Assembly: GCA_017992475.1 (NCBI GenBank)
Contig: JAGOOO010000002.1
Coordinates: 1-64,000 of the forward strand
Direction: 5' to 3'
DNA: 64,000 bases
DNA from: Caldisericia bacterium
GTDB taxonomy: Bacteria; Caldisericota; Caldisericia; JAAYUI01
Made by a program: the position numbers and the translations under genes. The notes below the pieces were generated by a model. That model saw only the letters and a program-made list of their open reading frames with translations, was not told the origin of the DNA and did not search any database. Below are positions 15,355-60,049 of this stretch, piece after piece (position 1 is the stretch's first letter; each line of letters opens with the position of its first letter).

Positions 15355-15401
15355 AAACAAACAAAAAAGGCGCTCCTTGTAGGCGCCTTTTTTGTTTGTT
15401 T
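15355..15401. terminator. Bidirectional terminator
   Basis: A perfect 19-bp inverted repeat with a nine-base loop; the core is GGCGC/GCGCC flanked by A-runs on the left and T-runs on the right. It sits between convergent genes and should stop transcription from both sides. Confidence 0.9.
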
Positions 15402-54700: not shown

Positions 54701-55234
54701 GACAACATTATAGTACCTCCCGGCAATGTAGTGGACTATGAAGACATGCAGCAGTTTAGCAAGATAATCTGGTACTGTGGCTTCAACGACGAAATAGGGG
54801 CCTCATGGTGGCTGGACAACCTTGCAAGATACGTCAATGATGGTGGTTCAATAGCCATCATAGGCCAGAATGTGCCGCAGGCAATCAGCTCAAGGCCCGA
54901 GCTTGCAAAAACATTCGGGTTTGAGTTGCTCGAATCCAATACCAGCATCTATGCTGTCAAAGGTGTGAAGGGAGACCCGATTGGTGATGATTTGATATTC
55001 TCGCTCTATCACCCATTCCTTAGAATGGGACTTCTTTCGGTTGCACCATCGATGAAGCCTGTTGGTTCTGGAGTGTCCTGTTTTGATTATCTTGGCGGAG
55101 CATCGGCAGGAGTGAGGGTTGGAACCGACAAACAAAAAACGCTTGTGCTCCCATTCGGTTTTGAGAACATGTATGCAGACACCAAGGAAAGTCAGGATCT
55201 TTTCAAGAGGATAGTGAGCTACCTGGGGAAGTAA
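51701..55234 (+). CDS. Secreted subtilisin-family (S8) serine protease with two GATase-like domains
   Basis: 1177 residues. A signal peptide is followed by an inhibitor-like propeptide. The S8 domain is near residues 120-430: Asp in VGLLDTGVDAKHPEL, His in GHGTHCAGII, Ser in SGTSMATPHVAG. Carboxypeptidase-regulatory/Ig-like modules come next. A class I glutamine-amidotransferase-like fold starts near 586 (FAGENGLYSEDVEILEDYLKEGGKLLISG), and its second copy starts near 964 (GFNDEIGASWWLDNLARYVNDGGSIAIIG). More regulatory-like modules separate the two. It is probably a surface or secreted degradative protease. AAAAGGAG precedes the ATG. Confidence 0.87.
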   Translation: MKKYLTLTLALLMVLVSFGNVGFALQKSDPVHQSRMAYVSPGIIAQMDEGSIDDPIDAMVWTSTPIDKSLERMGQNEGLLRFEPFKFMSCYYVSATSQALKTIASMPETLRVQENYSIKAPDTKMADTKNTKVNWGLDDLKVRDLWKQGIRGQGVKVGLLDTGVDAKHPELAGKVTKFATFDTSGKVIPDMTEPFDNVGHGTHCAGIIAGGKSGQDGVGVAPDCELIVGSVIPGGNGTLAQVIGGMEWILDPDGDPNTDDAPRVVSMSLGGSIPDEDMVAATDAFERKGVLLIASIGNSGDGSTGSPGNIPSVTSVGAYDKNRQPASFSSGNKIDWEIEPYHESVIKPDVSAPGVSIYSTFPKGKYAIASGTSMATPHVAGVCALLMSTDKSYSAIDLRMAIKATADDLGSKGWDTRYGIGAINPKAALDYLKKTGKVQVDINLPDKKVANLVIGDNHYRVDKSFALHLPPGKTNIELSSFGFKKLAQEVNVIAGKSSSISYEMSKLPKTSFKATMYGADGNPANVGQMRVTGTNFSADSDENGNFDAEIPTDEYDVEFWSIGYVPKTMKIDFSKDLPKKIQLEKADVLVVALQYTTPSQYYSRRFDKYCFRAFDEMGIKYCPVNPYKFDLTSDQMKMFDRVYWFAGENGLYSEDVEILEDYLKEGGKLLISGSNLLYFESYRRDNSFFTDNYGVILKNSPTPLTTMMGVKDDDIGDGLVFSFSGGDGASNQLGADGFVVNKGNGKPFMYYLGPKETSPADLGYTGLKLQTQNFLSIFLAFGFEGINSKEARQMLLSRVEKWFTSFGGVDITFEDEKGNPVYAKAKIDGIGDVETNDEGHLILSYLPQGKISLKVVPFGFAEQSFTATVTPGKTTRISLGLSNPTSVKISGKVVDSATGTPMKCDFKIIGFETKQYSTDDAGNFSLTLPKYKYSLKIFKKGYMNYWMDILENAEDLKVKMEKPKRVVALFQQIAPSWDTRSFAGIAQIYERVARGSGTDFDNIIVPPGNVVDYEDMQQFSKIIWYCGFNDEIGASWWLDNLARYVNDGGSIAIIGQNVPQAISSRPELAKTFGFELLESNTSIYAVKGVKGDPIGDDLIFSLYHPFLRMGLLSVAPSMKPVGSGVSCFDYLGGASAGVRVGTDKQKTLVLPFGFENMYADTKESQDLFKRIVSYLGK

Positions 55235-55261: not shown

Positions 55262-55305
55262 TTGACAATGTCATATCACACAATAAAATGTGTGATATGA
55301 CATTG
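55262..55305 (+). promoter_or_regulatory. Promoter embedded in a 17-bp perfect inverted repeat
   Basis: TTGACA (55262..55267), a 16-base spacer, TAAAAT (55284..55289), then seven bases to the ATG at 55297. The arms CAATGTCATATCACACA (55266..55282) and TGTGTGATATGACATTG (55289..55305) are perfect, with a six-base centre ATAAAA. They span the promoter and the start codon, as expected of an autorepressor operator. Confidence 0.85.
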
Positions 55306-55641
55306 GGAGTGATTATAAAGACAGCGTTAGTCCGCAAAGGTAAAACACAGGCCTGGCTTGCATCAAAGCTGGGCCTTTCTTCTATGAGTGTTTACCGGAT
55401 ATGCAATGATCTGGTCAAGCCGAGACAGGACGTTCTTCTGGGGATGGCTGAAAACCTTGATCTTCCATCTGAGTTTCTCATAAAAACATGCATTCAGACA
55501 CAGTATAAAACATCAGAGGGGTTTGACCTTTCCAGAACAAAAAAGGTCCTCGAGCAACTTGCGCTCGAGGACCCCACGTTAAGCGCCGACAAGAAAGAGG
55601 CGCTATTTAAGGCCGCAATGGTTTTGTCTGAGATAGACTAG
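55297..55641 (+). CDS. Cro/CI-type helix-turn-helix regulator, probably autoregulated
   Basis: 114 residues. The HTH has VRKGKTQAWLASKLGLSSMSVYRICNDL; the C-terminal half (about 70 residues) is helical, without a known ligand fold. The message appears leaderless, since the ATG is seven bases past the -10 box; the ATG at 55288 overlaps the -10 and cannot be transcribed from it. The start codon itself lies in the right arm of the operator. It is convergent with pckA, and the two stop codons share the bases CTAG. Confidence 0.85.
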   Translation: MTLGVIIKTALVRKGKTQAWLASKLGLSSMSVYRICNDLVKPRQDVLLGMAENLDLPSEFLIKTCIQTQYKTSEGFDLSRTKKVLEQLALEDPTLSADKKEALFKAAMVLSEID

Positions 55642-58452: not shown

Positions 58453-58963
58453 TGCCTTCCCTCGCCTCAAGATTTTGTGTATTGAAATAATGTTTTATTT
58501 CTTTCATTTCAGTAACAAGGTCTGCCATTTCAATGATTTCCGGATGGGCATATCTTCCAGTCAGGACCATCTCGGTCCCAGGGTATTTATCAAGCAACAT
58601 TTTTTTGGTTTCTTCAAGGCTTATCAGGCCAAAATATATGGCTACGTTTATTTCATCGGCAACTATGATGTCCCATTCTCCAGAAGCAGTTGCTTTTTTC
58701 AGAAAGGAAAGCCCTTCTTTTGCGAGCTCGACATCTACAGGGTCAGGATTTTTGGGATCAACAAATGATGGCCTTCCAAATTGCATGACCGTGATGCCCA
58801 GCACTCGCGAAGATTCAAGCTCACCGTAATCCTCTGATCCTTTCATGAACTGGACAAACAAGACACTTTTTTTGTGCCCTCTTGCCCTCATCGCCAGCCC
58901 GAAGGCACATGTTGTCTTGCCTTTGCCACAGCCGGTGTAAACTTGAATTTTTCCAAGGCTCAT
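58442..58963 (-). CDS. cobO: Cob(I)alamin adenosyltransferase, CobA/CobO type
   Basis: 173 residues; makes adenosylcobalamin, which NrdJ and the mutase need. It has IQVYTGCGKGKTTCAFGLAMRA with the P-loop, FMKGSEDYGE, DIIVADEINVAI and LTGRYAHPEI. The ATG at 58963 lies eight bases after a -10 box; the upstream TTG at 58972 overlaps that box. First gene of the operon with meaB, the B12 subunit and pckA. Confidence 0.94.
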   Translation of the reverse strand: MSLGKIQVYTGCGKGKTTCAFGLAMRARGHKKSVLFVQFMKGSEDYGELESSRVLGITVMQFGRPSFVDPKNPDPVDVELAKEGLSFLKKATASGEWDIIVADEINVAIYFGLISLEETKKMLLDKYPGTEMVLTGRYAHPEIIEMADLVTEMKEIKHYFNTQNLEAREGIEY

Positions 58964-58971
58964 TGGTCTCA

Positions 58972-58999
58972 ATCATAGGCCCACAAATGCACCTGTCAA
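58972..58999 (-). promoter_or_regulatory. Promoter of leaderless cobO operon
   Basis: On the minus strand, TTGACA (58994..58999), a 16-base spacer and TATGAT (58972..58977), then eight bases to the ATG. Confidence 0.75.
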
Positions 59000-59500: not shown

Positions 59501-59576
59501 GGCGAGGTAGCTCAGCGGTCAGAGCACGCGGCTCATACCCGCGGTGTCGTGGGTCCGATTCCCACCCTCGCCACCA
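59501..59576 (+). tRNA. tRNA-Met (anticodon CAT)
   Basis: 76 bases with encoded CCA. The acceptor GGCGAGG pairs with CCTCGCC and the anticodon loop is CTCATAC between CGCGG and CCGCG. The paired G1-C72 and the stem lacking the three-G run argue for elongator Met, or tRNA-Ile2 if the C is modified, rather than the initiator. No separate promoter is obvious, so it may be transcribed with the DivIC-like gene. Confidence 0.93.
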
Positions 59577-59668: not shown

Positions 59669-60049
59669 ATGGCAAAACAAACAATGACGACTTTAGGAGA
59701 GTTTCTTAATCAGCAGCGGTTGCAAAAGAAAGTTACCTTCGCAGAACTTGCCAAGTCTTGCAGCATGGCTACGCCAACAATATGGAAAGTAATAAAAGAC
59801 AAAGCAAGGCCCAAAGATTTGACACTCCAGGCGCTTTCTGAATCGCTGAACATTCCTTTGCAGGAATTATTCAGGATAAGGGACAAAACCCGCTACCCGT
59901 CCACCAAGAGAAGAACAAGAAGGGCCGCAGAAGAGATCTATCAAAATCAGTCAATTGGAAAAGAAGAACTAATGGAACTTATACAAAACTCCAAGATTTC
60001 CAACCAGACGATTGAGGCAGTCTACGACCTGATCCAATCGATAGGCTGA
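59669..60049 (+). CDS. Cro/CI-type helix-turn-helix regulator
   Basis: 126 residues. The HTH has TFAELAKSCSMATPTIWKVIKDKARPKDLTLQAL, in pieces FAELAKSC and TPTIWKVIKD. A basic linker (STKRRTRRAA) leads to a helical tail. It has the same layout as the HTH gene at 55297 and may be a distant paralogue, but it has no large palindrome. The start at 59669 is chosen over the TTG at 59660. The stop directly abuts the stop of the convergent kinase. Confidence 0.78.
   Translation: MAKQTMTTLGEFLNQQRLQKKVTFAELAKSCSMATPTIWKVIKDKARPKDLTLQALSESLNIPLQELFRIRDKTRYPSTKRRTRRAAEEIYQNQSIGKEELMELIQNSKISNQTIEAVYDLIQSIG

Follow-up and report, generated by a model that had tools for sequence, protein, structure and literature searches.

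What does a long, perfect palindrome do when it lies across both the promoter and the start codon of a small regulatory gene? The question is raised by one locus within the window, a stretch of 64,000 nucleotides from a Caldisericia bacterium that was analysed as a whole. The inverted repeat pairs CAATGTCATATCACACA (55266-55282) with TGTGTGATATGACATTG (55289-55305) at 100% complementarity about a 6-nt centre, which bears out the 17-bp perfect repeat described in the earlier note and gives a palindrome of 40 bases in all (55266-55305). That note also had the repeat enclose a whole promoter. Most of the promoter is indeed covered, but the first four bases of the -35 hexamer (55262-55265) lie outside. 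The features of the locus are:

55262..55267, + strand: -35 hexamer TTGACA, overlapping the start of the left arm by its final two bases; invariant in four species
55266..55282, + strand: left arm of the inverted repeat, occupying the greater part of the -35/-10 spacer; shows covariation
55284..55289, + strand: -10 hexamer TAAAAT, mostly inside the 6-nt centre of the repeat; invariant in four species
55289..55305, + strand: right arm of the inverted repeat, spanning the discriminator, the predicted transcription start (about 55296/55297) and codons 1-3
55297..55641, + strand: gene for a 114-residue Xre/HTH_3 protein with a predicted leaderless start, assigned by HTH_3, dN/dS and start-codon comparison
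55269..55280, no strand assigned: candidate first dimer site TGT-N6-ACA of a putative tandem operator; present in the window and in L012, not in L013 or L014
55291..55302, no strand assigned: candidate second dimer site TGT-N6-ACA; kept in all four species
59684-60049: distant HTH paralogue, just past a tRNA-Met gene (59501-59576) on the far side of the cobA/MeaB/PEPCK cluster, about 4 kb away

A chance origin of the repeat is as unlikely as had been supposed, the longest such repeat in 10 Markov shuffles of the window having 11-bp arms. One longer inverted repeat does occur in the window, a 19-bp terminator-like GGCGC/GCGCC stem that begins at 15355 and is followed by a T run. The genome was covered by pattern searches and by short stretches of sequence. 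Even when three mismatches are allowed, the 1.59-Mb genome contains the site only once, which rules out a dispersed or mobile repeat. A role as terminator of the subtilase gene is ruled out by the missing T run; the A+T-rich repeat is followed by GGGAGTG and does not appear in the terminator scan. A search against Rfam returned two matches only, both at chance level.

The gene that begins within the repeat encodes, as first proposed, an Xre-type HTH protein (HTH_3, PF01381, E 4.6e-06), the lambda-repressor-like family being matched at 27 bits against a curated cut-off of 23. Matches in PHROGs are to transcription-regulation families of phage type, and the predicted structure has a helical N-terminal domain with pLDDT above 90. 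In a fold search the HTH domain resembles P22 c2, SinR and C proteins, with E values of only 0.006 or worse. One distant viral relative of the domain was found (38% over 63 residues), and neither NCBIfam nor PADLOC gave a specific assignment to a defence or phage family. The protein is under strong purifying selection, with dN/dS of 0.02-0.04 among the four species.

Its promoter, TTGACA/TAAAAT with a spacer of 16, matches the consensus at 11 of 12 positions. TAAAAT begins 13 bp before the ATG at 55297, which itself lies 7 nt past the -10 hexamer. No Shine-Dalgarno site was found upstream of the gene, while one is visible at most other genes of the window. Leaderless genes with a TANNNT box carry their -10 element about 12 bp upstream of the start codon and have no Shine-Dalgarno site (PMC3160421), and the HTH gene has both attributes, from which a leaderless start is predicted. 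A second in-frame ATG at 55288 is disfavoured. Its third codon, the one directly before 55297, varies between Asp and Gly, and the protein after 55297 is nearly invariant; the paralogue aligns from M-T-(T)-L-G; and only from 55297 does the -10 hexamer fall 7 nt upstream in a gene that lacks a Shine-Dalgarno site. These three points favour the start at 55297. An internal start after GGGAG was also rejected: it would truncate helix 1, and no standard start codon is suitably spaced for it.

The same layout recurs elsewhere. Across four genomes of the genus TTGACA-N15-18-TANNNT-N6-8-ATG has 57 matches against 10 for a reversed-pattern control, and several of them open long frames, among them cobA in the window and a TetR gene. 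Not all are leaderless genes: two matches in G000 and one in G001 are tRNA-Leu promoters, and a few more lead only into very short frames. The tRNA-Leu(caa) promoters are those at L044, L046 and L058, where the 42-codon frames behind are tRNA sequence read as protein. The cobA gene, which heads the MeaB/PEPCK cluster, has the leaderless-type promoter TTGACA-N16-TATGAT-N8-ATG (58961-58999, - strand). Together with the missing Shine-Dalgarno site and the position of the -10 hexamer, this recurrence makes leaderless initiation at 55297 likely, in agreement with the earlier note, and indicates that the genus uses leaderless beside Shine-Dalgarno initiation.

The gene sits behind a subtilase gene, which stops at 55234, and faces the PEPCK gene in convergent orientation, so that its neighbours are the subtilase gene and the PEPCK/MeaB/cobA cluster. 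Orthologues 97-98% identical occur in three congeners (G001-G003, metagenome-assembled genomes of Caldisericales/Caldisericia), which places the window's genome in their genus, and a protein search across the class gave convincing orthologues in the four species of the genus only. The repeat has not been lost from relatives that keep the gene: promoter, palindrome and HTH gene occur together in all four available species. In a sister genus of the same family (G004) PEPCK follows the subtilase gene after 127 bp with neither HTH gene nor repeat between them, and the region's second HTH gene is kept. Two further hairpins lie within the HTH gene. The weaker, terminator-like and on the + strand (55349-55376), is about 50 nt into the gene and was also detected in L012 and L014; it may possibly serve attenuation or be a coincidence of coding sequence. 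Another terminator-like hairpin, on the - strand (55543-55575), fits the convergent PEPCK operon and was likewise detected in L012 and L014, a change in L014 keeping the - strand pairing as G.U.

We consider it moderately probable, reading from promoter, repeat and protein together, that the palindrome serves as operator for a leaderless gene under negative autoregulation and is bound by the encoded Xre-type protein; it is preferred as the most economical reading. Transcription would start with the ATG at 55297 or with the base preceding it. The 114-residue protein would bind the repeat, perhaps with two dimers separated by about two turns of the helix, and once bound would cover the spacer, the -10 hexamer and the start site. 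RNA polymerase would thereby be excluded and the protein would hold its own level low. The candidate TGT-N6-ACA sites are 22 bp apart from centre to centre, a spacing at which a pair of dimers could sit on the same helical face. Consistent with an operator are the repressor-like relatives in PHROGs and the fold matches over the HTH domain, the invariance of the -35 and -10 hexamers and retention of the repeat despite changes in its arms, and the joint absence of gene and repeat from the sister genus. Three observations sit less well with it. A 40-bp palindrome exceeds what one Xre dimer needs; pairs 3 and 10 covary outside the TGT/ACA triplets, where an operator does not obviously require it; and two pairs lose their DNA symmetry in L013 and L014 but form G.U pairs as RNA, which a pure operator does not predict.

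Pattern searches of the genome found no second operator, so no regulon corroborates the motif. The half-site scan that had been proposed gave no regulon either, the other TGTSRYATGACA matches whose surroundings were fetched all falling inside long open frames. The looser pattern TGTCAY-N14-30-RTGACA has many matches, none of them similar by eye except the locus and its orthologues. Given no other target in a genome that is 74% complete, the protein may mainly control itself; alternatively, other genes may be under its control by way of sites too degenerate to be recognised. The idea that the operator constrains the first residues of the protein finds no support, since M-T-(T)-L-G also occurs in the paralogue at 59684, where no comparable palindrome is present.

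The main rival of autorepression is an RNA hairpin that insulates the gene, a reading we hold to be rather unlikely. Transcripts reading through from the subtilase gene would form a hairpin of 17 pairs in which the start codon is buried, and leaderless transcripts from the gene's own promoter, without the left arm, would be the only ones translated. In the interval from the subtilase stop to the repeat no + strand terminator was detected, so read-through transcripts would fold in this way; that subtilase transcripts reach the HTH gene is an assumption. Fold energies lie between -33 and -36 kcal/mol and z between -5.6 and -7.1, the window's z being -7.1. Further evidence comes from the arms themselves, which alignment of the homologues (the window, L012, L013 and L014) found to covary as the earlier note had envisaged. 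No species differs in the -35 and -10 hexamers, the centre or the spacing, and 6 of the 34 arm positions vary: two pairs have changed on both sides and two have become G.U. At pair 3, L014 has G-C and the other three species A-T; at pair 10, A-T is found in the window alone, with G-C in the other three. Pairs 11 and 14, U-A and C-G in the window and L012, are U.G in L013 and L014. As + strand RNA all 17 pairs are standard in every species, whereas DNA symmetry, or RNA of the opposite strand, would keep only 15 of 17 in L013 and L014. When the same transitions were placed at random, with the pair 11 and 14 changes of L013 and L014 assumed to be shared by descent, all pairs survived in about 2% of trials and at least two double changes in the same lineage arose in about 1%. 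The commonest two-two partition over 5.35 kb upstream plus the gene sets the window and L013 against L012 and L014, and the history of pairs 11 and 14 thus involves repeated change or recombination. Shuffling the alignment gave a weaker result, 36 of 500 shuffles reaching the same pairing. With only four related sequences the covariation is suggestive rather than conclusive. It also counts against insulation that a start codon without a Shine-Dalgarno site would be poorly translated from a long transcript anyway, leaving little to insulate.

Autorepression and RNA folding may also be combined. The palindrome would then be a DNA operator that doubles as an RNA hairpin hiding the start codon in transcripts derived from upstream, a dual use that we regard as unlikely. 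If it holds, the leaderless gene would be translated only from its own regulated start, and the RNA role would have left its trace in the G.U pairs retained on the + strand.

It is improbable that the repeat has little or no function, having arisen and stayed symmetric by template switching between its arms during replication. RNA hairpins, along with compensatory changes in them, are reported to arise and persist through template switching (PMC8794818), but mutational upkeep of this kind leaves the invariant -35 and -10 hexamers and the exact register of the repeat on promoter and start codon to be explained. Moreover, to pass between the G.U and the perfect state both arms must be edited (pair 14 in the left, pair 11 in the right), which a single one-directional copy does not yield. 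Least probable, and only marginally credible, is an operator for some other regulator such as the paralogous HTH protein at 59684-60049, which lies 4 kb away in a context kept in the sister genus; that genus has the paralogue without the repeat, and the repeat is tied to the 114-residue gene.

Autorepression appears here as a compact putative unit in a little-studied phylum, with spacer, -10 hexamer, transcription start and start codon gathered in one palindrome. It would be a neat and conserved example of a well-known switch, in which the protein most likely turns off its own gene. Should the RNA role be real, the locus would also illustrate a way to shield a leaderless gene from transcripts that read through.

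Precedents exist for leaderless repressor genes that regulate themselves and have an inverted repeat overlapping the promoter, among them acuR, the C-protein genes and lambda cI. The acuR gene of Rhodobacter sphaeroides heads the comparison as part of a leaderless operon controlled by AcuR; like the HTH gene it encodes a regulator and has a promoter overlapped by an inverted repeat, and there the start is mapped, the repeat is the operator and autoregulation is negative (PMC3017554). AcuR differs in being a TetR-family protein with 8-bp arms, TAATAGAC-n6-GTCTATTA, and acrylate as inducer (PMC3017554), whereas the Caldisericia gene is of the Xre family, has 17-bp arms that reach into the coding region and has no known inducer. 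C proteins of restriction-modification systems are also small Xre-type HTH proteins, often leaderless, with two operator sites on their own promoter, but they adjoin restriction and methylase genes and also activate (PMC4824078). No linked restriction or methylase genes are present at our locus, and the protein is longer (114 residues), its two candidate sites being read from sequence only. The lambda CI, 434 and P22 c2 repressors place an operator over their own promoter. Our putative HTH repressor is of their type, and lambda CI likewise has a leaderless message (PMC3017554); the HTH gene differs from them in having housekeeping rather than phage genes as neighbours, in its single promoter and in the lack of an opposing Cro-type gene. 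What is less usual in the Caldisericia locus, judged against these systems, is the 17-bp length of the arms, the partly coding nature of one of them and a covariation that preserves the predicted RNA pairing.
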